Origin: Chloroflexota bacterium
GTDB lineage: Bacteria; Chloroflexota; UBA11872
NCBI GenBank assembly: GCA_026707285.1
Contig: JAPOXD010000056.1
Coordinates: forward strand, 1-47,381
Length of the DNA: 47,381 nt
Reading direction: 5' to 3'
Of this stretch, positions 12,174 to 46,476 are shown in pieces. A program made the position numbers and the translations under genes. Below the pieces are notes generated by a model. It saw nothing but the letters and a program-made list of their open reading frames with translations. It searched no databases and was not told the DNA's origin. Numbering within the stretch: the stretch's first letter is position 1; every line of letters begins with the position of its first letter.

Positions 12174-16421
<4,248 letters not shown>

Positions 16422-16495
16422 CGCGGAGTCAGTGTCGTCACGCAGGATTTTGCGAATGACCAGATCAGCCACAAGTCAATCTACAATCTCACCCG

Positions 16496-19400: not shown

Positions 19401-20332
19401 GATGGCGAGGGCCAATTCGTGACGTCGTACGGTCGGCCTCGTTCGAGGGTGTGCAGCAGCCACTCGGTTGCGTAGCGATGGCGCAGAGGCTCTGGCCACT
19501 CACGTGCCTTGGGATGCCGCGCGAGGTCAATGGGAACCACTTCACGTTCTTCGAGCATTCTACGCCTGTGGGGTGATAGATCGAACCATCCGGCTAGATA
19601 GATCTTTGGTGCGGAAGTCCTTAAGTTATCGCGGACCCATCCTGACCATTTCAGGAAATTGGGATCGTTTGCCGAGAATCCGATCAGGCAAAACACTGTT
19701 TCCATCATCGCCTGCTGGACCGTGTTTACGAGCGGTGCGAATCTAGTCGGGTAGGTGCGATAGTCTTCTTCCGTAAAGATTAGTGGGTACTGTGCGGGCA
19801 ATGATCCGTGAAGCTTAACGATTCGCGGCCGGTGTGCCAGCGGAATCTCATTCATGTCCCGAATGACGCTGTAGGGGCGATCCTCGACATGAGCACGTGC
19901 ACGCTCCAACAACGTGTCCCAGTTTGTGGTGAACACATCATGCCAAGGGAGTCGCAGCAACCTAAAATGTGATTCTGCCGGCCTAAAGTCTTCATCTCGA
20001 ATCTGTTGCTGTAGAAAGTGGTGCAGATCGCTTCTTCCGAAGGCGGTTTCATACTCTTGAGCTAAGTTCAAGAAGTGGCTAGTTGATATTGCTTCTGTGC
20101 TGTCGTCGTTCACTCGCCGTTGATCACTCGGCGGATACAGCTTGTTGTTCATCTGAAGTGCTAGCTCATGCCACATAGGAAGTTCGGCAGCATCGGGCCT
20201 CGTTTTCAGCGCAGATTTGCTAAATCCGCTTCCCACCATGACTGACGCTCCGCTTCCATTGCGTCTCCACAGAGCGTCGCGAACTCGATCAATGTGGCTT
20301 TGGTCTGCAAATGTGTCCCTGTCATTCGGCAT
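16496..20332 (-). CDS. Large SIR2-domain protein, probable defence NADase
   Basis: 1278 aa. The N-terminal 250 residues are a SIR2-like domain: GSGFS (34-38), TTNWD with Asn137 and Asp139, KLHGS with His175, and GFSANDP (218-224). All residues expected for NAD cleavage are present, as in ThsA and defence-associated sirtuins. Residues 330-1278 are a large, mostly helical region with no P-loop that I can find, so it is not a STAND (Avs5) protein; it could be HEAT-like and sense phage, as in DSR2. The ATG at 20332 lies inside the end of the restriction-modification gene (11-nt overlap), indicating coupled translation. Base composition is far lower in GC than the flanks (43% in 17221-17280), a sign of transfer. 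Confidence 0.85.
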   Translation of the reverse strand: MPNDRDTFADQSHIDRVRDALWRRNGSGASVMVGSGFSKSALKTRPDAAELPMWHELALQMNNKLYPPSDQRRVNDDSTEAISTSHFLNLAQEYETAFGRSDLHHFLQQQIRDEDFRPAESHFRLLRLPWHDVFTTNWDTLLERARAHVEDRPYSVIRDMNEIPLAHRPRIVKLHGSLPAQYPLIFTEEDYRTYPTRFAPLVNTVQQAMMETVFCLIGFSANDPNFLKWSGWVRDNLRTSAPKIYLAGWFDLSPHRRRMLEEREVVPIDLARHPKAREWPEPLRHRYATEWLLHTLERGRPYDVTNWPSPSSHKGPAIRDCLQPVMEVTSEQPREESTAPREISPSDLQDSVRDTLKIWKHNRMLYPGWIVLPAGESRSTLKMRTDSWEHHILKSLSSLSPVERLNSVRELIWRRELLLDPISEDLESAADRTLVSVNCQDRTIDEIADSQVDWNAVREAWRTVALALITPARFRFQLDLFTKRIQALEPFVNDDPDVENRIHHERCLWAMYSLDFEALHGLLEDWTVEDCDSIWMIRKAALLWESNRNDEASDLVKHGLNAIHSTLGVEHDIASASREGWALWSAINADNRQEIRKRWNELAALNCDANLERDLIARNLRESSASEDAPAFDLGVMRVQGLSYSAVWPEHLAFRAIRFTEVCGIPPATNHHDSVGTNIASDILKLSAEKLAASLPEVAIRVLMRVCNYDRDKSLMRILTRTRVAMLPIAIVDKHVQICTGVIEYVLSSRLLSRTPGPSVFWIERMRVAMEVLSRLVLRLPPETAGFVFNLALECYRNHQVSREPLLGKSVGNLLQRSWESLPESSRSCRFIDLLGAPIVGMDDFGATTGLPYPDAAASLGSDDSPVRRAPERTDRWDETIDLLIRGLGGTEESRRRAATRILKMAERGLLTEDESSKVAPVLWSAKYTSSDNLPTGTTLADWAFVVLPEPTPGLADRLFRRKWLSGDVARFQDSEEADGNTISVSLGEWPTNPNKIDHVLWNVGIAISNLRNRGRSFELTNDEHEYVVDLVQQWANINIRLFPIPFFQVAALDSTLWALQGLASILAECDVPTPVGECLFEKVKSMDTSGAPGFEIIGGLVKTIPDQIDELITWIRMGLVSDDSALSMSAIAGLQTWLSASSEANQSLPPPPDDLLHEVGFMIASRRTSPLPAALRLATWVFNEGTSDHRKTIRSLAIQGLSYMAEELRYDREPASDGTIDLPLLRWLCVQLAQAMAQSGCGDEPVVDVWLEFGREDPLPEVRNAAMPLAHRETELS

Positions 20333-23300
20333 GGGACGTTCCGCCTTTGGCAGTGACAGCGCTTAGGTTCAGTATTCCACTTATCCGCCGGGCGGTGTCG
20401 GTGAAGTGCTGGACTTCTTCGGGGCGGAGCGGGCGGTCGAGGATGGTTTGCTCGCGGTAGGAAAGCCACTTCTTGAGGACCTGGTAGCCGCCGAGCTTGT
20501 AGCGCCATACGGCGGCGGGGACGTTGCGCCAGTAGGCGCGGTCGTTGAGGTAGATGTCGAAGGTGGTGTCGCCGAGGGGGGCCGGATTCCCCTCACCCCA
20601 ACCCTCTCCCTCGGGAGAGGGAGCCGGATCGCCGTCGCCGCGGTCCTCCTCCGTTCGTGGTGAGCTGGACGAACCATTTATGGAGGCCGGATTCCCCTCA
20701 CCCCAACCCTCTCCCTCCGGGGGAGAGGGAGTCGGATCGCCTTCGCCCATTGAGGGAGAGGGGGTCGGATCGTCCGCTCCTGTCGAGGGAGCAAAGAGCG
20801 CCTCGCGTTCGGATTGGGTGTAGGCGCGTTCGACGGCGCGGCCTTGGCCGGGCATGACGGCCTCGCCTGAGCCGAAGTGGCCCCAACCGGCGGTGAGGGC
20901 GAAGTCGTCGCCATCCATCTGGCTGTCGTCGGTCGTGGTGGGCACGGCGATGGCGGCCAGTTCGGGGCGGAGCGGGCCGGTGGTGACGCCGGGGACGGGT
21001 GTGTCGGGGTCCAGCAGGGCGGCCAGCTCGCGTCCGCGAGCGGCGGAGGCGGCCAGGGCTTCGGCGGCCGGATTGGCCAGACCGGACGGAGTGGCGGTCG
21101 GCGCGGACAGCTCGGGCCAATAAAGCAGTGGAATGCGGGGCCATTCCATGCGCAGGGCACCGGCGTTGGCCTCGCGGTAGCCGGGATCGTGCAGCACAGA
21201 CAGGACGTGATGGAACAAGTCCTCGACGGTCAGGTTCAGGCGATCGAGATAGACGCGCGCGGCCGGCGACAGGTTGGGGCGGCGCGCATCGGAAGCGGCG
21301 GTCCCAGACGTGTCTTCGCGCAGCCAGGCCGGGAACATGCTGGCGCTCCACTCGTTCAGATGCAACGACGCTAGATGTTTGGTGACTGCTGTCTGAGGCT
21401 CAGTCGCTTCCCTGCGCAGACGTGGAACGACGGAAAGCCACAGATTTCCGTCGAACACGTGTGGCCTGTATTCCGGCACCGGACGTCCGAGCAACCCGTG
21501 ACCGGGTTCCCAATAGAGCCAGCGAGTATCGAACGGTCGATAGACATGGCGGACTAAACCCGACTCGTTAGGACCGCCACGCGCCAGGAGCCCGTCACGC
21601 ACTGCCCGGCCATCGCGCACAACAAACCCTGACGAACTCTTCACCGCAACGGGATAGCGCTCAGCAATCTCCTCGTGGCTTTTGTATGAATCGAAGTAGT
21701 CGGCAAGCCGTCCTTTGAGCCGGTCAAGATCAATGTCGACAAGGAATGCATCGCGTTTGGTCTGGACTCCTGGAAACCACGTTGGAAGCAGGTCTGGCAG
21801 CGCTGGCCAGTCGAACCAGTCTTTGCTAACGGCGACGGGCGCGAACGGCAGTCCCAGCGGCAGGACCGGCTCGATGGCGTCGTAGAGCGCATCCGGTTCG
21901 GCGTCAGCCGTTTCCGCCAGCGCCTCCAGCTTGGCCTGTCCCCAAAGATTGCGGAACTGCACGTTCGCGGCGGGGGTGTGGTCGAGCTTGCGCACTAGCG
22001 TGGCGACGGCGGTGCCGACCTGGATGCCGACCGGATCGTCGGGGGTGGAGAAGATGCTGGGATCGGGCGAGCCGTCGGGCGCGACCTTGCCGGTGCGGTA
22101 CTTGTCGCCGTTGAGGTTGTCGATTCGGATGGCGTCGAAGGCGTCCAGGTAGCGCTCGCGCATGCCGGGGCACGACAGGCTGTCCAGCCAGGAGTAGTTG
22201 GAGATAAAGCAGACCACGCCCTGGCCGGTCCTCTCGGCGATGCGGCGCTCGGCCATGCAGTAGAAGCGGACGTAGAGATCGTTCAGCCCCTGGCCCTCGG
22301 GCCGCCGCACCCGGCGTGTGGTGCGGTAAGCCTCCGATAGCTCGCGCTCCTCATCCACCGCCATCCCGGCGAAACCGTTGTATGGCGGATTGCCCAGAAT
22401 CACCAGGATGGGCGTGTGCTGCTTCACGCCATCAGCGCGCTCCCGTTCCTCCTGCAACTCGGGGATCGCCAGCGGCAGAGGTACGGTGGGCTTCCATCCG
22501 GTGAGCGCGTTGGTAAGGAAGACACTCGCGCGCTCGTCGCCGTTATCGGCCAGCGGCGCGTCGAGCTCTTGCAGCGCAATGCCGACTTGCAGGTGCGCCA
22601 CGACGAAGGGCGCGGGCATGATCTCGAAGCCGAACACCCGATCCAGCGCCGCCCGCTTGACGTGGGCGCCGGCGAGCGCGCCCAGGCCGCGGTCCCGAAG
22701 GTTGCCGGCAATGCGGCGCAGGACTTCCGCCAGGTAGGCGCCGGTGCCGCAGCAGGGATCGAGCACGTAGACGTTTTCCGCCGCCAGCCCGTCGGCGATG
22801 CCCAGGTCGTCCCGCAGCGCGCGGTCCACCCGCGCCACCATGTAGCGCACCACCTCGGCGGGCGTGTACCAGACGCCCAGCTGCTTGCGCAGCACGGGGT
22901 CGAAGGCTTGCAGAAACGGCTCGTAGAAGTAGGGCACCGCCTCGCCCTCGTTGAAGCGGGCGAAGAAGGCGGCCTGGTCCACGCGGTCGAGCGCGGCGTT
23001 GGTCCAATCCAACACCTCGACCAGGCCGAGCGGCTGCAATCGACCCGGATCGGAGAGCTGCTGGAACAGCGCCCGGAGCACGGGCGCGCGCAGGTGCCAG
23101 ACGGCGGTACGCCAGTCGAACGCGCCCGCGGGCGGCGAAGCCTGCCGCGCCCACAGCACCCAGGCGGAAAAGACGCCGTAGAAGAGCGTTTGTACCAGCG
23201 TTGAGCGGAAGAAGGCCGCACCGCGATCGCCCTCAAACTTGACGCCGAGCGCCTCTTCCAGCGCCCCGCGCACGGCGGTCAACGACGGCGCGTCGCCGGC

Positions 23301-23918
23301 GGCTTCCACCCGCGCCAGGCCGTCGCGCGCGTATGACGCCAGCAGATTTGCGAGGTCCCTGGGCTCGGCCAGGACGGCGCGGTGCGAGAGGACGCGCAGC
23401 AGGTATTCGCCCAGGCCCGCGCCGACCCGGTTCGCGAAGGCGCGCGGCTTCTCGAGCTGGCGGTCGAAGTCCTCTGCGTCCGCGGCCAAGCGGAAGGTTT
23501 CGAGCTTCGCCGGCCGACCCGCCGCGTCCTCGCCGACGAGCACGAAGTCGCGGTAGTTGGTGACCAGGACCAAGCGGTAGACGCCCCAGTACCGGCTGAC
23601 CTGATCGCCGTCGGCGGTGAGCCACGCGTCGTCGTCGACGGGTTTGACCTCGACCACGCCGTGTTCGGGCAGCTGCCCCTCGCTCGGCTGGCCTCCCCGA
23701 ACCTGCTTGGCGGCGTAGAGCCCGAAGTCGGGATGGCCGGCGCCCAGGTTCGCCAGTTGCCCGACGCAGAAGACCTTGGGTTTAAGGCTGCCGCCGATCG
23801 CGTTGAGGAGGTTTTCCAGCGGGGTGTAGCGGGAAGTTTCGGCGGTGGCGCCGCCGGTGGCGCGGATGCGCCGCAGGTCGGCGAAGTAGGTTTCGACGGC
23901 GGTCGTCAGCCGCGGCAT
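20322..23918 (-). CDS. Single-chain restriction-modification enzyme, type ISP/IIG-like
   Basis: 1198 aa. An N-terminal PD-(D/E)XK nuclease is visible as HPDFG (Asp64) and VVEVKP (Glu90, Lys92). The N6-adenine methyltransferase has motif I DPCCGTG (387-393) and motif IV NPPY (510-513). The rest matches the target-recognition and C-terminal domains of type ISP enzymes, ending with FDIYLNDRAYWRNVP and VLKKWLSYRE. The SNF2-like helicase of true type ISP enzymes is missing, so cleavage is more likely IIG-like. Residues of about 1044-1114 are low complexity because several palindromic repeats are read in frame there. A 21360-21830 patch in the specificity region has lower GC. It overlaps the SIR2 gene downstream, suggesting a shared transcript. 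Confidence 0.9.
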   Translation of the reverse strand: MPRLTTAVETYFADLRRIRATGGATAETSRYTPLENLLNAIGGSLKPKVFCVGQLANLGAGHPDFGLYAAKQVRGGQPSEGQLPEHGVVEVKPVDDDAWLTADGDQVSRYWGVYRLVLVTNYRDFVLVGEDAAGRPAKLETFRLAADAEDFDRQLEKPRAFANRVGAGLGEYLLRVLSHRAVLAEPRDLANLLASYARDGLARVEAAGDAPSLTAVRGALEEALGVKFEGDRGAAFFRSTLVQTLFYGVFSAWVLWARQASPPAGAFDWRTAVWHLRAPVLRALFQQLSDPGRLQPLGLVEVLDWTNAALDRVDQAAFFARFNEGEAVPYFYEPFLQAFDPVLRKQLGVWYTPAEVVRYMVARVDRALRDDLGIADGLAAENVYVLDPCCGTGAYLAEVLRRIAGNLRDRGLGALAGAHVKRAALDRVFGFEIMPAPFVVAHLQVGIALQELDAPLADNGDERASVFLTNALTGWKPTVPLPLAIPELQEERERADGVKQHTPILVILGNPPYNGFAGMAVDEERELSEAYRTTRRVRRPEGQGLNDLYVRFYCMAERRIAERTGQGVVCFISNYSWLDSLSCPGMRERYLDAFDAIRIDNLNGDKYRTGKVAPDGSPDPSIFSTPDDPVGIQVGTAVATLVRKLDHTPAANVQFRNLWGQAKLEALAETADAEPDALYDAIEPVLPLGLPFAPVAVSKDWFDWPALPDLLPTWFPGVQTKRDAFLVDIDLDRLKGRLADYFDSYKSHEEIAERYPVAVKSSSGFVVRDGRAVRDGLLARGGPNESGLVRHVYRPFDTRWLYWEPGHGLLGRPVPEYRPHVFDGNLWLSVVPRLRREATEPQTAVTKHLASLHLNEWSASMFPAWLREDTSGTAASDARRPNLSPAARVYLDRLNLTVEDLFHHVLSVLHDPGYREANAGALRMEWPRIPLLYWPELSAPTATPSGLANPAAEALAASAARGRELAALLDPDTPVPGVTTGPLRPELAAIAVPTTTDDSQMDGDDFALTAGWGHFGSGEAVMPGQGRAVERAYTQSEREALFAPSTGADDPTPSPSMGEGDPTPSPPEGEGWGEGNPASINGSSSSPRTEEDRGDGDPAPSPEGEGWGEGNPAPLGDTTFDIYLNDRAYWRNVPAAVWRYKLGGYQVLKKWLSYREQTILDRPLRPEEVQHFTDTARRISGILNLSAVTAKGGTSHAE
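20582..20629. repeat. Palindromic repeat copy inside R-M gene
   Basis: CCCTCTCCC (20602-20610) and GGGAGAGGG (20613-20621) form a 9-bp stem, flanked by CCGGATTCCCCTCACCCC on the left and GCCGGAT on the right. It is read in frame by the restriction-modification gene. Confidence 0.85.
20653..20674. repeat. Second short palindrome type inside R-M gene
   Basis: GTTCGT (20653-20658) is the reverse complement of ACGAAC (20669-20674). The element differs from the GAGAGGG family and lies between two of its copies, making the insertion a patchwork. Confidence 0.5.
20687..20736. repeat. Palindromic repeat copy inside R-M gene
   Basis: CCCTCTCCC (20707-20715) and GGGAGAGGG (20721-20729) are separated by TCCGG, with the same CCGGATTCCCCTCACCCC left flank as the copy at 20582. 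A right-half fragment follows at 20749-20771. Confidence 0.85.
20749..20771. repeat. Partial GAGAGGG repeat inside R-M gene
   Basis: Only the right arm (GAGGGAGAGGGGGTCGGAT) is present. It is the third copy within 190 bp and is also read in frame. Confidence 0.55.
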
Positions 23919-32844: not shown

Positions 32845-34908
32845 CTAGCCGTCCGCGGCGGCCGCCTCGGTGACGAGGCGATCCTGCACGTGCGGCGGCA
32901 CTTCCTGGTAGCGGACGAATTCGCTGGTGAACTGCCCCCGCCCCTGCGTGATCGAGCGCAGGTCGGTGGCGTAGCGCTGCACCTCCGCCTTGGGCACCTC
33001 GACCTCGACGATGGTGGCGCCGTCGTAGTCGGCGGGATTCATGCCCAGCACGTGTCCGCGCCGCGCGCTGATGTCGCCGATCACGTCACCCGTGTTGAGG
33101 TCCGGGATTTCGATGGCCAGCTTGACGATTGGCTCCAGGATCACGGGGCTGGCCTGGTGGTAGCCGTCCTCCACCGCCAGCCGGGCGGCGTTACGGAAGG
33201 ACTCGTCGGACGAGTCGACGTCGTGATACTGGCCGTCGAACGCCGCCGCCTTGATGTCCACCACGGGGAAGCCCGCCAGCGCGCCCTTGACAAAGCACTC
33301 GACGAGCCCCTTTTCCACGGCGGGCAGGTACTGCCTGGGGATCGCGCCGCCCTTGATGCGGTCCTCGAACTCGAAGCCCGCGCCGCGCTCCCGCGGAGAG
33401 AACTCGATGTGCACGTCGCCGAACTGTCCGCGACCGCCGGATTGCCGCTTGTGCCGCCCGTGCGCGTTCACGGTCTTGCGGATGGTTTCGAGATAGGGCA
33501 CCCGCGGCACGTCCGCCAGCAGGTTCACGCCGAACTTTCGCCGGATGCGCTCGAGGCTGATGTGCACGTGCGACTCGCCCAGGCCGGCCAAGATGGTTTC
33601 GCCGGTCTGGTCGTCGCGCCGCACCTGCAGCGATGGGTCCTCCTCGGCGATCCGCGCCAGCACCTGGCCCATCTTGTCCAGGTCGGCCTGGGTCGCGGGC
33701 GTGATGGCGGCCTCGAACAGCGGCGTGGGCATCTCCAGCGCGCCCATCTTGTGCGGGGAGCCGTCCGACACCAGCGTGTCGCCGGTGGCGACGTTGTCCA
33801 GCTTGGTGACGAAGGCGATGTCGCCGGCCACGACGACTCCCGCTTGCTCGCCGCCCTTGCCCACCGGGTATTGGAATCCCGTGAGGCGCTCGTTTCTGCC
33901 GCTGGTCTGGTTGCGCAACTCGACGTCCCCCGGGATCGTCCCGGTGTAAAGGCGCAGCAGGGACACCTTGCCCACGAACGGGTCGGCCAGGGTCTTGAAC
34001 ACCTGGGCGACGATCGGGCCGTCGCCGGCGAAGTCAATGGTCGCGCCGTTTGCAGTGGGAGCGACGGGCAGGTCGGACGGCGCCGGCAACACGGCGGTGA
34101 TGGCGTCGAGCAGTTCGCGCGCGCCGTGGGTGGCCGTGGCGGCGGTGAACACGACCGGGTAAATCTCACCCGCGCGCACGCCCGCCCGCAGCGCCCGCTC
34201 CAGGTCCGCGCGCTCGAACTCTTCGCCTTCCAGGTACTTCTCCAGCAGGTCGTCGTCGGTTGCTGCCACGGCGTCGGTGAGTTGCTCGCGCGCGATCTCG
34301 ACCGTCTCGGCCAAGGCGTCGGGCACCGGAATCGGCTCGCTGCCGCCGTCGGTGAACGCGCGGGCCGTGCCGTCCAGCAGATCGACCACCCCGTCAAACG
34401 CCGGCGCCTCGCCCACCGGGATCTGGATGGGGGCGATGGCCGCGCCAAACTTGTCGCGCAGCTCCTGGACGACGTCTTCCCAGCTCACATTTTCGCGGTC
34501 CATGCGATTCACGACCACGAGCCGCGGGCGGTCCCGCCGGTCGACGAGCCGCCACACGATTTCGGTGCCGACCTGGATGCCGGCCGTGGCGTCGATCACC
34601 ACGATTGCCGCATCCGCCGCCCGCAGTCCCGAGACCACGTCGCCGATGAAGTCGGGATATCCCGGCGTGTCGATGACGTTGACGGTGGCGCCGCGCCAGG
34701 GACACGGCACGACCGAGAGGTTGATGGACATGCCCCGTTCCACCTCGTCCGGGTCGAAGTCGGAGATGGTGTTGCCGTCTTCCACCCGACCGAGTCGCGA
34801 GGTTTGCCCGGTCACATAGGCCATGGCCTCGGTGAGCGAGGTCTTGCCGGCGCCGCTGTGCGCCACGAACACCACGTTCCGGATCGTGTCGCTGTTGTCC
34901 CGATCCAT
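32845..34908 (-). CDS. Elongation factor G-like GTPase (EF-G2 type)
   Basis: 687 aa from ATG 34908. The G motifs are HSGAGKT (17-23; canonical EF-G has HIDAGKT), RGMSI in switch I, DTPG (80-83) and NRMD (134-137). Domains II to V follow in full, with the GKGGEQAG and GESHVHISLERIRRKF segments. The altered P-loop places it in the EF-G-like group (FusA2 of mycobacteria), whose role beside the main EF-G is unclear; it need not be the translocase. The frame remains open far upstream only because it runs antisense to proB. AAGGA lies about 11 nt before the ATG. Confidence 0.92.
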   Translation of the reverse strand: MDRDNSDTIRNVVFVAHSGAGKTSLTEAMAYVTGQTSRLGRVEDGNTISDFDPDEVERGMSINLSVVPCPWRGATVNVIDTPGYPDFIGDVVSGLRAADAAIVVIDATAGIQVGTEIVWRLVDRRDRPRLVVVNRMDRENVSWEDVVQELRDKFGAAIAPIQIPVGEAPAFDGVVDLLDGTARAFTDGGSEPIPVPDALAETVEIAREQLTDAVAATDDDLLEKYLEGEEFERADLERALRAGVRAGEIYPVVFTAATATHGARELLDAITAVLPAPSDLPVAPTANGATIDFAGDGPIVAQVFKTLADPFVGKVSLLRLYTGTIPGDVELRNQTSGRNERLTGFQYPVGKGGEQAGVVVAGDIAFVTKLDNVATGDTLVSDGSPHKMGALEMPTPLFEAAITPATQADLDKMGQVLARIAEEDPSLQVRRDDQTGETILAGLGESHVHISLERIRRKFGVNLLADVPRVPYLETIRKTVNAHGRHKRQSGGRGQFGDVHIEFSPRERGAGFEFEDRIKGGAIPRQYLPAVEKGLVECFVKGALAGFPVVDIKAAAFDGQYHDVDSSDESFRNAARLAVEDGYHQASPVILEPIVKLAIEIPDLNTGDVIGDISARRGHVLGMNPADYDGATIVEVEVPKAEVQRYATDLRSITQGRGQFTSEFVRYQEVPPHVQDRLVTEAAAADG

Positions 34909-34965
34909 GGCCGTGTGTTCCTTCGGGCTGGGCGCGCCACGAGGCGCGCGGCGCGGGGGAGCGCC

Positions 34966-34971
34966 ATTATA
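34966..34971 (-). promoter_or_regulatory. Candidate -10 box for the EF-G-like gene
   Basis: On the minus strand the hexamer is a perfect TATAAT. No convincing -35 box lies 16-18 bp upstream. Transcription would begin near 34959, about 50 nt before the start codon. Confidence 0.4.
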
Positions 34972-34983
34972 TCGGCGAGTCCC

Positions 34984-34989
34984 TACAAT
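34984..34989 (+). promoter_or_regulatory. Candidate -10 box for proBA
   Basis: TACAAT on the plus strand would give a leader of about 36 nt to the proB ATG. The same hexamer serves as the dnaE -10 box. No clear -35 box is seen. It lies close to the divergent TATAAT, so the two promoters would overlap. Confidence 0.35.
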
Positions 34990-35031
34990 CACGCACCCGA
35001 GCGGCAAGTCGGAACTGAAGCCCCGGTCACC

Positions 35032-36144
35032 ATGTCTGGTCGAAAGCGCATCGTCGTCAAGTGCGGCACACAGCTGCTCACGACGCCTGCCGGCCTCAAC
35101 GAGGCGTACATCGAGCAGATCGCGGCGCAGATTTCCTCGCTCATCCGCGACGGCGCGGAGGTGGTGCTGGTGTCGTCCGGGGCCGTGGCGGCAGGACGCG
35201 CCAAGCTCCACCTGCAGGGCAATCAGCTCACCACGCGGCAGGTCTTGGCCGCCGTGGGACAGGCGCCGCTCATTGCGCGCTACGGCACCGTGTTCGCGGC
35301 GCACGACATCACCGTGGCGCAGACGCTGATGTCCCGCGCCGACCTGACCACGCGCGATGGGTTTCTCAACGCGCGCAACGCCCTCACCGGATTGCTCGAT
35401 CAGGGCGTGTTGCCCATCGCCAACGAGAACGACGTGGTAGCGACGGAGGAACTGCGGTTTGGCGACAACGACCCGCTGTCGGCCCTGATCGCGCAACTGG
35501 TCGATGCCGATTTGCTGATCCTGCTGACGGCGACCGACGGTCTCTATACGGGCGATCCTCGTCGCCATCCGGATGCCGAGCTGATTCGAGACGGACATGT
35601 GATGACGGACGAGTTGCTGGCCAGCGCGGCGGGGGCGGCCGGCGCCGGCGGGTCGGGAGGCGTCCGGTCGAAGGTCGAGGCGGCGCGCAGCGCCAGCTTC
35701 GACGGTATCGAGGTCGTCGTCGCCGGCGGCAATGAGCCCGATGTGCTCCCGCGCATCGCTGCCGGCGAACGCATCGGCACGCGATTTGCGCCGCGGGAGG
35801 TGACTCGCACCAGCCGGGCCCGCTGGCTCAGCTCCGCGGCCACCGAGCGCGGCACCTTGCGCGTCGACGGTGGCGCCAAGCACGCGCTCACCGATTCCGG
35901 GCGGAGTCTGCTTCCCGCCGGCATTTGCGCCGTGGATGGCGACTTCATCCGGGGGGACGTGGTGGCGGTTGCCGGCCCGGACGATCGAGTCTTCGCCCGC
36001 GGACTCGTAAACTATGCCTCGCACGACTTGGTGCGAATCCTGGGTCGGCCGTCACACTTGATCGCGTCGATCCTCGACTACGATCATGGAGCGGAAGCCG
36101 TGCATCGCAATAACCTGGTTTTGCTCGACAGTGCCCAGGCCTGA
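35032..36144 (+). CDS. proB: Glutamate 5-kinase
   Basis: 370 aa. It catalyses the first step of proline synthesis, ATP-dependent phosphorylation of glutamate. The amino acid kinase domain shows IVVKCGTQLL, VSSGAVAAGR, NENDVVATEELRFGDND and GGSGGVRSKVEAA. A PUA domain covers about residues 275-360 (GTLRVDGGAKHAL, DFIRGDVVAV, ARGLVNY). ATG 35032 starts exactly at the conserved N-terminus. It is followed by proA after 14 bp. The long open frame upstream is antisense to the EF-G-like gene and is not coding. Confidence 0.97.
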   Translation: MSGRKRIVVKCGTQLLTTPAGLNEAYIEQIAAQISSLIRDGAEVVLVSSGAVAAGRAKLHLQGNQLTTRQVLAAVGQAPLIARYGTVFAAHDITVAQTLMSRADLTTRDGFLNARNALTGLLDQGVLPIANENDVVATEELRFGDNDPLSALIAQLVDADLLILLTATDGLYTGDPRRHPDAELIRDGHVMTDELLASAAGAAGAGGSGGVRSKVEAARSASFDGIEVVVAGGNEPDVLPRIAAGERIGTRFAPREVTRTSRARWLSSAATERGTLRVDGGAKHALTDSGRSLLPAGICAVDGDFIRGDVVAVAGPDDRVFARGLVNYASHDLVRILGRPSHLIASILDYDHGAEAVHRNNLVLLDSAQA

Positions 36145-38579: not shown

Positions 38580-39350
38580 CTAGTGGGCCGTCCAGCCGCC
38601 GTCGACGGTGAGCACGGTGCCGGTGACGAACGCTGCTTCGTCGCTGACGAGGTACGCGGCGGCGGCGGCGATGTCCTCGGGCTCGGCCCACAGGCGCTCG
38701 AGCAAGCTCATGTCGCGCAGGACCTGGTCCCAGCCGTCGGGATTGCGGTGCTTCACGTCGTCCATCACGGGCGTGTACACCGCGCCGGGCGCGAGGGCGT
38801 TGGCCCGGATCCCGGCGCGGCCATAGTCGCGCGCGATGGTCTTCATCAGCATTTCCACGCCCGCCTTGGCGGTGCAGTAGGCCGCCTGCCGATCGAAGGC
38901 GACCGAGCCGCCCACCGATGAGGTGGCGAGGATCGATCCGGCGCCGGCCTCGATCATGTGTGGAATGACGTATCTGCAGCACAGGTAGACGCCGGTGAGG
39001 GTGACGCCGATGTGCCGGTCCCAGACGTCCTCGGACGTGTCGGCGATGGCAAAAAGCTCGTCAAGGTAGGCGGCGTTGGCAAACAGGATGTCGATCCGGC
39101 CGTGGGTTGCGAGGGTTTCATCGACGAGCGCCTGCACGTCCTTGGTGTTTGATACGTCGCAATGGATGAATGACGCTTCGCCGCCGTCGTGACTGATCAA
39201 TTGGACGGTGTGCTCGCCGCCGGCGGTATTGATATCGGCGATCACCACCGTTGCGCCTTCGCGGGCGAACCGAATGGCGCTGGCGCGACCGATGCCCGAT
39301 GCCGCGCCGGTGACGATGGCTGCCTTGCCCGCAAGCCGTGAGGTGACCAT
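38580..39350 (-). CDS. SDR family NAD(P)-dependent oxidoreductase
   Basis: 256 aa, classical short-chain dehydrogenase. The cofactor motif is TGAASGIG (14-21); DINTAG follows the second strand, and an Asp there favours NAD. The usual NNAG appears as NAAY. The catalytic Ser is in ATSSVGG and the Tyr/Lys pair in AYCTAKAG. The C-terminal GTVLTVDGG is typical. The substrate is unknown. Its promoter can be seen upstream (39389-39418), and it ends 23 bp from the convergent ComEC-like gene. Confidence 0.92.
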   Translation of the reverse strand: MVTSRLAGKAAIVTGAASGIGRASAIRFAREGATVVIADINTAGGEHTVQLISHDGGEASFIHCDVSNTKDVQALVDETLATHGRIDILFANAAYLDELFAIADTSEDVWDRHIGVTLTGVYLCCRYVIPHMIEAGAGSILATSSVGGSVAFDRQAAYCTAKAGVEMLMKTIARDYGRAGIRANALAPGAVYTPVMDDVKHRNPDGWDQVLRDMSLLERLWAEPEDIAAAAAYLVSDEAAFVTGTVLTVDGGWTAH

Positions 39351-39682
39351 GAGTTGACCCGATATGCGAATAGACAGTGTTGATGTGAATCATAGCATGT
39401 AGTCCGAGCCGCCATCAATTTCAAGAGAAACGTTGCGATTTAGACGCTGATAAGGCTCGATTTATCTTCGTATGAAATAGTGGGATGCGTACTGGGATTG
39501 TCTGGCGATTCCAACGGCCTCCGGTCCGTAGTTCAGAATCGTCATTTTCGCCAAAATGCTAGACTCCGGCGCTGCAATCCTGGTGGGATCGTCATGGTCC
39601 GGCATCGCCGACCGGACAACCCGAGTGATGCGTGTCACATAAGCCCTTCCGGTCGCCTCGATCAGTGTCACGCGCCTGACTC
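39351..39682. other. Divergent intergenic region, relatively AT-rich
   Basis: The 332 bp between the SDR gene and the aspartoacylase-like operon hold the SDR promoter on the minus strand. No RNA gene, repeat or convincing plus-strand promoter was found, and open frames in it are short and non-conserved in appearance. Confidence 0.5.
39389..39418 (-). promoter_or_regulatory. Sigma-70-like promoter for the SDR gene
   Basis: On the minus strand TTGATG (39418-39413) and TATGAT (39394-39389) are separated by 18 bp. The leader to ATG 39350 would be about 32 nt. Confidence 0.45.
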
Positions 39683-40654
39683 ATGACGGCTGAGCGCAAG
39701 GTCCGAGCGATTGCCGTGCCCGGGCATCCGTCAGCGGAGATCCCGCTGATCGAGTTCTCGGCGACGACGCCCGGGCCGGTGGTCAATATCGTCGGCGGCC
39801 TTGCTGGCACGGCGTATCCAGGCATCGCGGCGTGTCGCATGCTGGCCAAGCGATTGCCTGGGCTGCTGACCAAGGGACGCGTCCGCATCGTGCCGGTGGT
39901 GGACGTGGCGGGGTTCTATGCGCGGGCCGCCCGCTTCTGCCCGCTGGATGGGCGCGCGGTGGTTGGCGCATTCACCACTGCGGCGGCGGAGGAACGCTCA
40001 GCGAGCGATCGCATCGCCGAGGCCGTGGCCGAAGCCATCGCGGACGCCGACGTTCACATCGATGTCCGCGGCGGCGAGTTGACCGAGCTGCACGCGCATT
40101 GGGCTGCCGTTCCTCCAGCAGCTTCGCAGTTCGAATCCCTGGCACTGGCCGTGGCTTCCGGCGCCGATATGCGCGTTTCCGTGGACCCGGAAGATCCGAT
40201 GGCACTCGAACTGGGTGCGGCCGGTCGCATCGCGACCGGAAGCCGGGCGGCGCTCATCATTTCCGGGGGCGGCGGCGTCACCGACGTCGTCGGGCATGCC
40301 CAGGTGCTCTTGGACGACCTGCTGCGAGTGCTGGATGCCCTCGACGTGATCGACGGAATCGTGACGGAACGCGCGGTGCCGCTGCGTGTCGTCGGACCGA
40401 GGGTTTGGAGCCACATTGCCGAGTCGCCGGGGTTGTGGATGCCGGCGACCGCGCCGGGTGTCTGGGTGGCCGCCGGTGAAGTGCTGGGCCATATCCGGGA
40501 CTACTTCGGCGAACCGTTGCAGGAGGTGACCGCACCGTTCGACGGCGCCGTCTTGGCGCTTACCACCAGCATGGCCGTCAACGTCGAGCCCGCCCCTGAC
40601 GGCGACCGTTGGTTTGGGCGCACGGTCACAGTGGCGGAGGCAAGTCGGGAATGA
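39683..40654 (+). CDS. Succinylglutamate desuccinylase/aspartoacylase-like protein without zinc ligands
   Basis: 323 aa, with the overall layout of the AstE/ASPA branch of M14 metallocarboxypeptidases and similar to the third gene of this operon. Active members bind zinc with His-x-x-Glu and a later His. Here the first motif reads GGLAGTAYPG (Ala41 and Ala44 replace His and Glu) and the third position is Arg129 in HIDVRGGE. The catalytic Glu position reads Ser193. All key residues are therefore lost while the fold and the C-terminal beta domain look kept, which suggests a pseudoenzyme, perhaps a binding or regulatory subunit. Its stop overlaps the next start (ATGA). Confidence 0.75.
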   Translation: MTAERKVRAIAVPGHPSAEIPLIEFSATTPGPVVNIVGGLAGTAYPGIAACRMLAKRLPGLLTKGRVRIVPVVDVAGFYARAARFCPLDGRAVVGAFTTAAAEERSASDRIAEAVAEAIADADVHIDVRGGELTELHAHWAAVPPAASQFESLALAVASGADMRVSVDPEDPMALELGAAGRIATGSRAALIISGGGGVTDVVGHAQVLLDDLLRVLDALDVIDGIVTERAVPLRVVGPRVWSHIAESPGLWMPATAPGVWVAAGEVLGHIRDYFGEPLQEVTAPFDGAVLALTTSMAVNVEPAPDGDRWFGRTVTVAEASRE

Positions 40655-41940
40655 CAGCGACGCTTGACCTCACCGCCGCGCGGACGGCGGCCTGGGAGGC
40701 CTTCGACCAGCGCCATGAGGAGCATGTCGCGAGCCTGCAACAGTTCGTGCGCATTCCGAGCGCGCGCGGCGAGGAATTGGCGGCGCAGCAGTGGATGGCG
40801 CGTCGCATGGAGAGCCTGGGGCTGGACGTGGAAATGATCGAGTGCGACCCCGACGCGCTGGCCCGCTATCCGACCTGGAGTCCCACCGATTGGTCCTATG
40901 AGAATCGGCCCAACGTGGCGGGCCGCTGGCCGGGGACCGGCGGCGGGCGGTCGCTGATCCTCAACGCGCACGTGGACACCACCTCCCCGGAGCCGGTTGA
41001 GCTGTGGAGCCGCGACCCGTGGGGCGGCGAGATCGATGGCAACCGCCTCTATGCGCGCGGCGCCCAGGACGACAAGGCCGGCTGCTGCGAGATGCTATTC
41101 GTGGTGCGGGCGCTGCAGGACGCGGGTCTGCGCCTCAAGGGCGATCTCATCCTCGAGACCACGATCGACGAGGAGTGCTCCGGCAACGGCTCGCTGGCGC
41201 TGGTCGCCGCGGGGTACGAGGCCGACGGCGTGCTGATGCTGGACGGCACGGGCCTGGGGCGCGCGATCGTGGCTCATCCCGGTCACGTGGCCTTTCGCGT
41301 CACCATCCACGGCAAGCCGGTGCCGTATATCTCGGCCACGCACGGCGTGAACGCGATCGAAAAGGCCTCGGTGGTGATCCGGGCGCTGCGCGAGTTGGAG
41401 GCGAAAAAGAACGAAAGTGTGCCCCCGCGCTGGGCCGACACCAACCATCCGATTCACTTCAACGTCTACGGCATCACCGGCGGCGAGTGGGTCGGCACGG
41501 TTGCCGCCCGCTGCGTGCTGGACGCCACGTTGGGCTTCATGCCGCCCGAGACCGTGGCCGACGCGCGGGCGCAAATCGAGGCGACCGTGGCCGAGGCGGC
41601 CGCGCAGGACGCATGGCTGCGGGACCATCCGCCGCAGGTCACGTTCCAGGGTCTGGCCTTGGAGCCGCTGGACATGGGCGACGACAACCCCGTGGTGGCC
41701 CATCTGGCCGAGGCGCACCAGGTGACGACGGGGCTGCCGCTCGGGCCGGTGGCGATCACCGGCTTCTGCGACCTGCACCAGCACAGCCTGCGACGCCCAA
41801 CGCCCGGCTGCCTCTTCGGTCCCGGCAGCGGCGGCGGGGCGCACTCGGTGGATGAGTTCTTCGACCTGAACGATCTGGCCCCGGTGACGAAGACGGCGAT
41901 TGCCTTCGTCCTCGACTGGTGCGGGTGGGAAGCGACATGA
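40651..41940 (+). CDS. M20 family metallopeptidase (ArgE/DapE/ACY1 type)
   Basis: 429 aa. The metal ligands are visible in NAHVDTT, GAQDDKAG, TIDEECSGNG (catalytic Glu pair) and the C-terminal GGGAHSVDEFF. Members hydrolyse N-acyl amino acids, carbamoyl compounds or peptides. ATG 40651 overlaps the previous stop as ATGA and has GGAGG 10 nt upstream. The next gene starts within its own stop codon in the same way. Its place between two aspartoacylase-like genes suggests stepwise amide hydrolysis of one substrate. Confidence 0.92.
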   Translation: MTATLDLTAARTAAWEAFDQRHEEHVASLQQFVRIPSARGEELAAQQWMARRMESLGLDVEMIECDPDALARYPTWSPTDWSYENRPNVAGRWPGTGGGRSLILNAHVDTTSPEPVELWSRDPWGGEIDGNRLYARGAQDDKAGCCEMLFVVRALQDAGLRLKGDLILETTIDEECSGNGSLALVAAGYEADGVLMLDGTGLGRAIVAHPGHVAFRVTIHGKPVPYISATHGVNAIEKASVVIRALRELEAKKNESVPPRWADTNHPIHFNVYGITGGEWVGTVAARCVLDATLGFMPPETVADARAQIEATVAEAAAQDAWLRDHPPQVTFQGLALEPLDMGDDNPVVAHLAEAHQVTTGLPLGPVAITGFCDLHQHSLRRPTPGCLFGPGSGGGAHSVDEFFDLNDLAPVTKTAIAFVLDWCGWEAT

Positions 41941-42968
41941 GCGCTCGCGGCGGGTCCAAGACGACACGGGTCGAGCGGTACGTGCACCATTCGGGCGAGG
42001 AGTTGGAGATTCCCGTGGGCACGGTCGTCGGCGCGCGGTCGGGTCCGAAGTTCGGCGTCTCCTCCGGCATGCATGCCGGCGAGTTCGCGGGCATGCGCGC
42101 CGCCATTCGGCTCTGGCAGGAGCTGGATCCGGCGACGCTGCGCGGCGAGGTCCGCATCATCCCCATCATGAGCACGCGGGCGTTCTTCGCCCGGTCGACC
42201 CAGCTATCCCCGGTCGACGAGCGCGAGCTGCACTTCCAGCCGGCGGGTCGGCCCGAGGGGACCTACTCCGAGTTCCAGATCGACTGCGTCTTCAACCTCC
42301 TGCGGGACCTCGACTTCCACGTCGACATGCACGCTGGCGAGTACGTGCAGGCGCTGGACCCGTGGGTGGCCTTCGCCGACCCGACGACGAACGAGCGCCT
42401 GCGGCGGGACACGTGGCGGCTGGCCGGTTCCATGCCGGTGCCGTACCTGGACCCGCGCCAGGCCGAGATCCAGGACGAGTTCTCAAAGCTCGACCAGGGG
42501 CTGCCCTTCGCGCTGCTCGGCGTGGGCGTCGCGAACGTCTGGACGGAGATCGGCCAGAACGGCGTCCAGGACCCGGCGGACATCGAGCTTCAGTACCAGT
42601 CGCTGGCAAACGCCCTGAAGCGCTTCGACATGATCGACGGTGAGCCGGTGCCGGTGCCGCCGCAAGCGATCCTCGGCCCGCGGCGTTGGAGCATGGAATC
42701 GCTGGAGAGCGGCTATTGGCAGTCGGAGGTCAGCATCGGTCAGAAGGTGAGCAAGGGCCAGCGGGTGGGCGTGCTCGAAGACCTGGCCGGCAACCAAATC
42801 AAGACGTATACGGCTCCCGAAGACGCGGTGGTCCAGTATTTCTGGACCAGCCCGGCAATCAATGCTGAGCGCGTGCCGCATGGGTACCCGTGGCACCGGG
42901 GACTCATTCGCCTATCCGAGCTACGCCCCGACGCCCACCGCGACCCGAGGCTGGAGCTCGCCCGCTGA
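41937..42968 (+). CDS. Succinylglutamate desuccinylase/aspartoacylase family hydrolase
   Basis: 343 aa. The zinc site is complete: His46 and Glu49 in SGMHAGEFAG and His132 in HVDMHAGE; Glu204 in VWTEIGQNG fits the catalytic Glu. Relatives remove acyl groups from N-acyl amino acids or related amides. ATG 41937 overlaps the M20 stop (ATGA), with GGTGGGA just upstream. It is the intact partner of the degenerate gene at 39683, and the pair probably arose by duplication within this operon. Confidence 0.9.
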   Translation: MSARGGSKTTRVERYVHHSGEELEIPVGTVVGARSGPKFGVSSGMHAGEFAGMRAAIRLWQELDPATLRGEVRIIPIMSTRAFFARSTQLSPVDERELHFQPAGRPEGTYSEFQIDCVFNLLRDLDFHVDMHAGEYVQALDPWVAFADPTTNERLRRDTWRLAGSMPVPYLDPRQAEIQDEFSKLDQGLPFALLGVGVANVWTEIGQNGVQDPADIELQYQSLANALKRFDMIDGEPVPVPPQAILGPRRWSMESLESGYWQSEVSIGQKVSKGQRVGVLEDLAGNQIKTYTAPEDAVVQYFWTSPAINAERVPHGYPWHRGLIRLSELRPDAHRDPRLELAR

Positions 42969-43001: not shown

Positions 43002-43376
43002 TTAGGCCGGGACTTCGTCGTCCGGGAGGTTGGGCGCGAGGAAGCACATCATCAGCAGCGGCTCGTCGCCGACGACTCGCAGCGAGTGGCGGGAACCGCG
43101 GGCGGCATAGAGCACGGCGCCGGGCTCGGCCATGATTGGTTCGTTGTCGTCGAAGGTGAACTCCGCGCAGCCCTCGTGCACGACGAAGACCTCCTCGCAG
43201 TCGGGGTGGTAGTGCGCGGCCTGGGCGGTTCCGGACGGCCAGTGCAGCAGCACGCTGCGGTGTTCGGCGGTGGCGCTGATGCGTTCGCGCCAGGTTCCGG
43301 AGCCGTTGCGCTGTTTGATGGCGGCGATGGCGTCGTGCGCCAGGTTGTTGGCCGTGGCCGGGTCGACGAATGGCAT
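43002..43376 (-). CDS. Small cupin domain protein
   Basis: 124 aa from ATG 43376, which begins the conserved part; AAAGGA lies about 10-15 nt upstream. The cupin motifs are HYHPDCEEVFVVHEG and EPGAVLYAARGSRHSLRV, giving His, His, Glu and His metal ligands in the usual order. Single-domain cupins may be sugar or ketoacid isomerases, dioxygenases or sensors; the role is unknown. It follows the GH4 gene with a 25-bp gap and is probably cotranscribed. Confidence 0.85.
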   Translation of the reverse strand: MPFVDPATANNLAHDAIAAIKQRNGSGTWRERISATAEHRSVLLHWPSGTAQAAHYHPDCEEVFVVHEGCAEFTFDDNEPIMAEPGAVLYAARGSRHSLRVVGDEPLLMMCFLAPNLPDDEVPA

Positions 43377-43401
43377 TGGGCGTGAGTCCTTTCGTGGGGC
43401 G

Positions 43402-44694
43402 CTAGCGGTATTCGCGCAGGTAGTCCGCGTGCGCATCCATGAGCTCGCGGCCCATGGCGAGTCCGGCGTCAACGTCCACGATCGTGCGGTCGGCAAGGAG
43501 GGCTAGCAGGGCGAGGTCGCGGTCGCGTTGGATGATCGCGTCGGTGAGGAGCTCCAGCTGGTCGATCCATGGTCGCAGCGTCCCGGCGACGGGTTCGGGG
43601 ACCGCGCCCACCGGCTCGCGGGTCATGCCGCTCGCGTCGAACCAGGCCGGTACCTCGACGTTGGCCCACGGCGCGAGATTGCTGACGGCGCCCTCGTTGG
43701 GAATGTTGACGTAATCGCTGCCGTCGCGGCCGGCAGACAGCGCCGCGATCAGCTTCAGGGCCTTTTCGCTGGTGGGCTTGAAGAGCGAGTCGGGCAGCGG
43801 GTCCGAGCCGGTGGCAATCTCGCTGAACCGGCGCTGGACCTCGGTTCCCCGATCGAAGTACTCGTCCATGTCGAAGCGGAACAGGCCGCGCGGCAGCTTT
43901 CCGTCGTCGCCCGGACGGCAGTACCAGGGGAAGAACTCGCTGACGTGGCGGTCGCCGGGGGACGGGAAGAATCCGTAAAGCTCCAACAGGTCCCAGCTCA
44001 CGTCCAGGCGCTCGCTTGGCGGCGGGCGCTGGGCGGCCTTGAGCGCCGGATAGAGGTCCGTGCCATTGCGGCGCAGATCGAGAATCCACTGCAGGTGGTT
44101 GATGCCGGCGGCGCGGACGGACAACTCGTCTCCAGGGTGGTCAAGAAACTGCGCCAGGCGTCGCGTGGTGCCCTCGATGCCGTGGCACAGACCGACCACC
44201 TTGAGATCGGTGCACTTGGCCAGGGTGCGGCAGATGGCGCACATGGGGTTGGTGTAGTTGAAGAGCCAGGCATCGGGGCACAGGTCGCCCATGTCCTGGG
44301 CAATCGCCTGGAACACGGGCACGGTGCGCAGCGCCCGTGACCACCCGCCGGGACCGACGGTGTCGCCCGTGGTGAGGACCATGCCGTGTTTCTCGGCGAT
44401 GTCGAGGTCGATGGTCCACAGGCGACGGTGGTCCAGCGCGATGGCGACGATGACGTAGTCGGCGCCGTCCAGCAGGTCGCGGCGGTCGGTGGACGATTCG
44501 ATCCGGTAGGGCATGTCCCGCTCGGCCACCATGCGCTCGACGACGCGCGTGGTGACGCCGAGCGTTTCCGCGTCGACGTCGCAGAGGGCAATCGTGCTGC
44601 CGGCCAGGTCGTCGCGGGCGTGCCAGAGGTCGGCCACGATGGTCGGGGCGAAGACGCGGCTGGCCCCGATGACGACAATCTTGACGGCTGCCAC
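43402..44694 (-). CDS. Glycoside hydrolase family 4 protein
   Basis: 430 aa. GH4 enzymes cleave alpha- or beta-glycosides through an NAD- and Mn-dependent oxidation-elimination route. The N-terminal dinucleotide site is IVVIGASRVFAP, the substrate motif is FNYTNPM (145-151), and the Mn ligands fit Cys170 and His171 in GLCHG with His200 in GINHL. Whether it acts on alpha-galactosides, glucuronides or other sugars is unclear. It sits in a minus-strand run with an SDR, a cupin and oligopeptide-type ABC genes, suggesting uptake and breakdown of a glycoside. Confidence 0.92.
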   Translation of the reverse strand: MAAVKIVVIGASRVFAPTIVADLWHARDDLAGSTIALCDVDAETLGVTTRVVERMVAERDMPYRIESSTDRRDLLDGADYVIVAIALDHRRLWTIDLDIAEKHGMVLTTGDTVGPGGWSRALRTVPVFQAIAQDMGDLCPDAWLFNYTNPMCAICRTLAKCTDLKVVGLCHGIEGTTRRLAQFLDHPGDELSVRAAGINHLQWILDLRRNGTDLYPALKAAQRPPPSERLDVSWDLLELYGFFPSPGDRHVSEFFPWYCRPGDDGKLPRGLFRFDMDEYFDRGTEVQRRFSEIATGSDPLPDSLFKPTSEKALKLIAALSAGRDGSDYVNIPNEGAVSNLAPWANVEVPAWFDASGMTREPVGAVPEPVAGTLRPWIDQLELLTDAIIQRDRDLALLALLADRTIVDVDAGLAMGRELMDAHADYLREYR

Positions 44695-44745: not shown

Positions 44746-45498
44746 TCATTGCACCAGCCGCCCGCCATCGACAATGAGCGTGGCGGCGGTGATCCAACTG
44801 GCGAGGTCGCTGGCCAGGAACACCGCCGCGCCGGCCACATCGGGCGGCAGCCCGAAGTCGGGAAGCGGCGCCCCGTTCCAGCGCACCGGCGTTGCGCCGG
44901 CAGGGGCCGGCGATCCCGTCATGTTGGTGTAGACCGCACCCGGCGCGATGCAGTTGGCGGTGATGCCGTGCATTCCCAGGTCCTCGGCGATCGACTTGGT
45001 GAAGCCCTCCACCCCGGCCTTGGAGGCGGCGTAGCTCACCTGGCCGGGGCATCCCTGGTGACCGCACAGCGAGGAGATGTTGACGATCCTGCCGCCGGCG
45101 CCGCGGGCGGTCATGCGCGCGGCCACGACTTGCGTGCAGAGAAAGAGTCCCGTCAGGTTGACCGCGAGCGTGCGATTCCAATCGTCCAGCGTGATCTCGT
45201 GCAGATGGCCGCGGCGGAGGATGCCGGCGTTGTTGCACAGGATGTCGATGGGGCCAAGCTCGGCTTCGGTGCGCTGCACCAGGCGCTCGACATCGCCGGG
45301 GCTCGACACGTCGCAGGGGATCGGGACGGCCGTTCCCCCGTCCGCTCGGATTTCGTCCGCGACCTGGTCGACGGCGCTGCCGCCGGCGACGGCCACGCGG
45401 GAGCCGTGCCGGGCGTACGCGTGCGCAATGGCTCGCCCGATGCCGTGCAAGCCGCCGGCCCCGGTGACGATGGCGACTCGGTCTTGCAGCAGCCCCAT
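44746..45498 (-). CDS. SDR family oxidoreductase
   Basis: 250 aa, classical SDR. The cofactor motif is TGAGGLHGIG, with one extra residue compared with the usual TGxxxGIG. NNAG is in ILCNNAGI, the catalytic Ser in NISSLCG and Tyr/Lys in SYAASKAG; the end reads TLIVDGG. It starts 6 bp after the OppF-like gene stop and is followed by GH4, so it is likely part of the same transport and catabolism operon, perhaps oxidising a sugar released by it. Confidence 0.93.
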   Translation of the reverse strand: MGLLQDRVAIVTGAGGLHGIGRAIAHAYARHGSRVAVAGGSAVDQVADEIRADGGTAVPIPCDVSSPGDVERLVQRTEAELGPIDILCNNAGILRRGHLHEITLDDWNRTLAVNLTGLFLCTQVVAARMTARGAGGRIVNISSLCGHQGCPGQVSYAASKAGVEGFTKSIAEDLGMHGITANCIAPGAVYTNMTGSPAPAGATPVRWNGAPLPDFGLPPDVAGAAVFLASDLASWITAATLIVDGGRLVQ

Positions 45499-45504
45499 TT
45501 CGCG

Positions 45505-46472
<968 letters not shown>

Positions 46473-46476
<4 letters not shown>

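Follow-up and report, generated by a model that had tools for sequence, protein, structure and literature searches.

The window analysed here is the whole 47,381-nucleotide stretch of contig JAPOXD010000056.1 from a Chloroflexota bacterium (assembly GCA_026707285.1). Near its end, three consecutive genes overlap one another. In order, they encode an aspartoacylase (AspA)-like protein that lacks the catalytic residues of its family, an M20 deacylase and another AspA-like protein, which retains them (Table 1). The first and third are referred to below as the dead and live genes. Both junctions are ATGA overlaps in the window. Across the six genomes of the genus, the M20/live ATGA junction was retained in all, and the dead/M20 overlap was ATGA in three and longer in three. 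The tightly overlapped operon described in the first-pass annotation was therefore borne out, with overlaps at both junctions common to 6/6 genomes. The start assigned to the live gene, 41937, was also upheld, as position 41919 carries no start codon in two orthologues. The motifs that we take to hold the metal in the M20 protein are intact in all six genomes.

The order SDR1, dead, M20, live, cupin, GH4, SDR2, OppF, OppD was likewise kept in the six genomes. Beyond the point where the window ends, ORFs for OppC, OppB and a substrate-binding protein were read by eye after OppD in the relative G002. Upstream of the operon, the conserved block varied at 2-8 bases per 20-base segment across the six genomes, compared with 9-19 in most of the remaining gap. 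No Rfam match was found for this block, which is possibly a leader or operator. A small upstream ORF was considered and rejected, having no codon-position bias and no Pfam match.

Table 1. Features of the three-gene operon and its neighbours, with positions in the window.
Feature	Position	Strand	Basis
Dead AspA/DoeB-fold protein, very probable pseudoenzyme, 323 aa	39683..40654	+	ORF, family search, alignment, fold model
M20 family ArgE/DapE-type deacylase	40651..41940	+	ATGA overlap with dead gene; family search
Live AspA/DoeB-like hydrolase	41937..42968	+	His46, Glu49, His132, Glu204; ATGA overlap with M20
Conserved non-coding block 5' of operon (possible leader, promoter or operator)	39550..39625	.	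Six-genome comparison
SDR oxidoreductase (SDR1), divergent from operon	38580..39350	-	Family search; syntenic 6/6
Cupin protein, convergent neighbour, start uncertain	43002..43496	-	Family search; syntenic 6/6
GH4-family glycosidase	43402..44694	-	Family search; syntenic 6/6
SDR oxidoreductase (SDR2)	44746..45498	-	Family search; syntenic 6/6
OppF-type ABC transporter ATPase	45505..46476	-	Family search; order kept 6/6
OppD-type ABC transporter ATPase, at contig end	46473..47366	-	Family search; order kept 6/6

Elsewhere in the window, genes for an Lhr-type helicase, a SIR2-like domain protein and a type ISP restriction-modification protein stand in a row on the minus strand (12177-23918) and may form a defence island. 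At 32848-36144, long open frames occupy both strands over 3 kb, with EF-G on the minus strand and a plus-strand frame in which the proB domains (AA_kinase, PUA) are confined to the C-terminal third. On these grounds a dN/dS of about 1.1 for the forward ORF g35945 was rejected as an artefact, and overlapping frames of this kind are a trap for ORF-based selection tests.

The dead and live proteins had been placed in one hydrolase family, and their alignment agreed with this (312 aligned columns, 26% identity, E 2e-26). Against the Pfam model AstE_AspA_cat (PF24827), the dead protein scored 28.6 bits, above the cut-off of 25, and 6/6 dead orthologues matched at E <= 0.01. The live protein scored 20.2 bits, below the same cut-off. 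With the dead protein passing and the live protein failing, this serves as a warning against calling genes of this kind active desuccinylases from a Pfam match alone. The nearest NCBIfam model for both was DoeB (TIGR02994), at 23.9 bits for the dead and 53.0 bits for the live protein compared with an equivalog cut-off of 402.7 bits. The family search returned no match of the dead protein to enzyme families other than AspA, and no DNA-binding or signalling domain was found in it.

An AlphaFold2 model of the dead protein was built from a 46-sequence alignment, which omits 7 of the 53 rows used for the tree, and reached a pLDDT of 89.7 and a pTM of 0.91. The best VIA-align matches were 3cdx (Z 30.7, 296 residues) and DoeB 6twm (Z 30.6, 301 residues), with an rmsd of 3.0 A, and the top Foldseek ranks were the same two families. 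Both domains were matched and model residues 2-321 were spanned, indicating that the modelled fold is complete, C-terminal domain included. Based on the model confidence and the match to 3cdx, the dead protein is predicted to have the full-length aspartoacylase fold.

According to PMC10998430, the zinc ligands of ASPA are H21, E24 and H116 and the base is E178. In the alignment, the dead protein has Ala41, Ala44 and Arg129 at the zinc-ligand positions and Ser194 at the general-base position. The live protein has His46, Glu49, His132 and Glu204, the same four residues that had been listed for it, and H, E, H, E was found in 6/6 live orthologues. The claimed loss of the zinc ligands and the catalytic Glu held for all four residues of the dead protein; only the number of the last needed correction, from Ser193 to Ser194. 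The motif of an active AspA-type zinc hydrolase (HxxE...H and the catalytic Glu) is thus absent from the dead protein and present in the live one. In all six genomes of the genus the dead clade reads A/G, A, R and S/T at these positions, and the same substitutions in six genomes are therefore not sequencing noise. Each of the 47 other homologues, six of them the live orthologues, had H, E, H, E in the 53-row alignment, which omits G000:C17, 12 genomes, the additional copy in each of G146 and G373, and further family hits. Across 42 relatives, seven columns (H, E, G, D, D, H, E) were fully invariant; of these, the dead clade retains exactly the Gly and the two Asp, and lacks exactly H, E, H, E. 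Further residues of the dead protein (H137, H139, C51, R129, E151 and D212) were invariant in its six orthologues and occurred in 0/42 relatives at those columns. H137-x-H139 lies on the strand predicted to follow Arg129, which leaves some room for the refutation named in the first-pass annotation, that other His/Glu residues occupy the zinc site of the dead protein.

The Asn-Arg substrate pair (N70 and R71 in ASPA) was present as N in 36 and R in 40 of the 42 relatives. In the dead clade it is replaced by V/A and G/R/A. Departures from the family occur in the live protein as well, with His-Phe in place of the pair and Ser in place of an earlier conserved Asn; judged from these changes, its substrate is probably unusual. 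With the pair lost in the dead and changed in the live protein, the alignment suggests that neither acts on an ASPA-like substrate in the standard manner.

The first-pass annotation had taken the preserved frame and length as a sign that selection maintains the inactive copy, and had proposed measuring the selection ratio. No stop or frameshift was found in the dead gene in 6/6 genomes. By the Nei-Gojobori method, the 15 pairs of dead orthologues gave dN/dS values of 0.154-0.211 with a mean of 0.186, in keeping with that claim. For comparison, dN/dS was 0.081 for the live gene, 0.100 for the M20 gene and 0.183 and 0.158 for two neighbour genes. Under a codon model, free omega was better than omega = 1 by about 224 log units, in what is a rough comparison. 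Dead orthologues were 80-83% identical to the window copy and live orthologues 93-95%. Across the six dead orthologues 207/323 positions were invariant, and Ala44 and Arg129 were invariant despite varying codons. The old active-site segments of the dead protein were variable in 8/59 columns compared with 108/264 elsewhere (circular-shift P 0.003). A similar bias was found in the live protein, with 3/58 columns variable compared with 39/291 elsewhere, and the windows had been picked after the alignment had been viewed. The bias in the dead segments is therefore evidence for a retained pocket but no proof of one, and the conservation may in part reflect core packing.

The dead gene was narrowly distributed. 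Among 41 genomes of the class, only the six members of the genus matched it. A model of the dead protein run against 400 genomes of the phylum found the six genus members and ten genomes with distant homologues, which keep H, E, H, E in the tree. In the sister genus, 13 genomes gave no match to the dead query or to the live one. The co-occurrence of dead and live copies, a check that had been proposed, was thus complete within the genus (6/6), but among the 41 genomes of the class and 400 of the phylum no pair was found beyond it. Genus g8 (same class, 6 genomes) has M20 beside a live AspA without the dead gene in 5/5 loci. Three other tandem AspA sites (7 genes) in the family scan of the phylum all keep H..E and D.H. 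Matches to the dead protein in four plasmid records had an identity of about 24-25%. One of these, from Rhizobium sp. 007, retains the ligands. A cluster on a Cytobacillus oceanisediminis plasmid (L125 10893-24186) holds four AspA-family genes, between which lie M20 and two sets of Opp-type transporter genes. AspA, AspA, M20 and Opp stand side by side as they do here, with H, E, H, E kept in all four AspA-family copies. From the g8 loci and this plasmid, M20 and live AspA thus form a recurrent team to which the dead gene is an addition in one lineage.

In the 53-row tree, the live clade grouped with G326 (39% identity), in whose neighbourhood no dead gene was found. The dead clade stood alone on a long stem without a resolved sister. 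That the dead gene is a recent duplicate or broken copy of its live neighbour was considered and rejected, given the 26% identity and the separate places in the tree, although the long branches leave its exact origin loose. The phrase 'intact paralogue' used for the live gene was therefore right as to family and intactness, and wrong if taken to mean a duplicate of which one copy went dead. The sequences point to the dead gene being an old paralogue.

With the motif gone, the fold retained in the model and the gene under selection, the dead protein has the sequence features expected of a pseudoenzyme. Taking the losses, the fold, the selection and the conserved operon together, it is very probably a true one. 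It would be full-length and folded, unable to hold the zinc of the family or to activate water, and maintained by selection in a non-catalytic role within the three-gene M20 and AspA operon. The emptied pocket, in which the invariant Arg129 replaces the third zinc ligand and is a likely anion contact, may bind a substrate or product. Its ligand would probably be an anionic acyl-amino acid or small peptide imported by the neighbouring Opp-type transporter. As a regulatory or binding subunit, the role suggested in the first-pass annotation, the dead protein may pair with the live AspA, which is translated from the same overlapping message, and make it more stable or adjust its activity as a prozyme does. 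Here we infer the pocket ligand, the physical pairing and the direction of the effect. Human and rat ASPA crystallise as dimers (PMC10998430), so a pseudo-subunit is feasible.

The whole chain, from selected pseudoenzyme through ligand-binding pocket to a pairing that stabilises or tunes the live AspA, is proposed tentatively, as a reading that may well be correct but falls short of probable. Against it, G326 as the nearest relative of the live protein has no dead neighbour and the M20-live pairs of g8 have none either, so a dead partner is not generally required. In the dead clade the Asn-Arg pair is gone and its columns vary, so that an ASPA-like substrate would not be bound in the standard manner. 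Pairing is equally possible with the M20 protein or with nothing. A bolder form of the proposal appears unlikely: that the zinc site was turned into a ligand site built on Arg, or into a new active site built on HxH, that the dead protein is an obligate, ligand-gated partner of the live AspA, and that this is the first dead/live pair in the branch.

The chief alternative is that the active site was rebuilt, giving a neofunctionalised enzyme with a new active or metal site in the same pocket, formed from H137-x-H139, Arg129, Glu132 and perhaps Cys86 and Cys51. The invariant residues specific to the dead clade and the predicted position of the two histidines on the strand next to Arg129 are consistent with this, and pseudoenzymes with migrated catalytic residues are a known precedent (PMC10211241). 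However, with so many positions invariant in six close orthologues, many such residues are expected by chance, and AspA was the only enzyme family matched; this alternative is considered unlikely. Similarly unlikely is a stand-alone ligand-binding protein, a cytosolic sensor or carrier of the imported compound that makes no contact with the live protein. In its favour are pocket segments that are conserved though catalysis is gone, an Arg that would suit a carboxylate at a zinc-ligand position, and the adjoining genes for an Opp-type transporter and for catabolism. Such tight overlaps in translation with M20 and live argue instead for assembly or a fixed stoichiometry, and the protein has no recognisable DNA-binding or signalling domain. 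That the dead protein is a structural subunit of an M20-containing complex, and not of the live AspA, would fit the direct overlap of its gene with that of M20, but is improbable: other lineages have M20 with a single live AspA or live tandems and no dead copy, so M20 has no general need of it, and the live protein, having the same fold, is the more plausible partner. A decaying pseudogene or assembly artefact is extremely improbable. The dead gene does evolve faster than its operon partners, as the orthologue identities indicate, but the frame is intact in six assemblies, the replaced residues are conserved and the predicted fold is confident; the same operon and the same losses in 6/6 genomes, with a dN/dS of about 0.19, therefore speak against decay.

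Among known systems, searches of the libraries and the PDB gave DoeB and 3cdx as the closest names for the two window proteins. DoeB/EutE (N-acetyl-L-2,4-diaminobutyrate deacetylase; 6twm, 6twl) and the unassigned AspA-family protein 3cdx share the whole predicted fold, both domains, with the dead protein. Unlike DoeB, the dead protein has none of the three zinc ligands and no general base, and both window proteins lie far below the DoeB cut-off. No paper on an AspA-family pseudoenzyme was found in the open-access literature searched. Pseudopeptidases of the M14 family are the closest parallel: in the review PMC11266112, domain III of CPD, AEBP1/ACLP, CPXM1, CPXM2 and Ecm14 have lost zinc ligands and/or the base with the fold kept, as the dead protein of the same fold group would have done. 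The word 'aspartoacylase' occurs 0 times in that review. The M14 pseudopeptidases are eukaryotic and each has at least one zinc ligand in the review table (PMC11266112), whereas the dead protein is bacterial, of the AspA branch, operon-encoded and without all four residues. As M14-fold pseudopeptidases are already known, what is new is a bacterial, AspA-branch, co-operonic pseudoenzyme from which all four residues are gone.

The prozyme of Trypanosoma brucei AdoMetDC, a paralogue without catalysis of its own that activates the live enzyme (PMC5201418), offers the functional analogy. In both cases a dead and a live member of one family are kept together. For the prozyme the complex is proven, whereas here genetic linkage is seen and a complex would follow by analogy. 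The AdoMetDC prozyme has a fold unrelated to that of AspA. If the proposed reading is correct, the operon offers a small, bacterial, co-operonic dead/live pair with six natural variants, of a kind not found in the searched literature on this zinc hydrolase family. It would allow a direct test of how a metalloenzyme pocket becomes a binding site while selection holds the fold.
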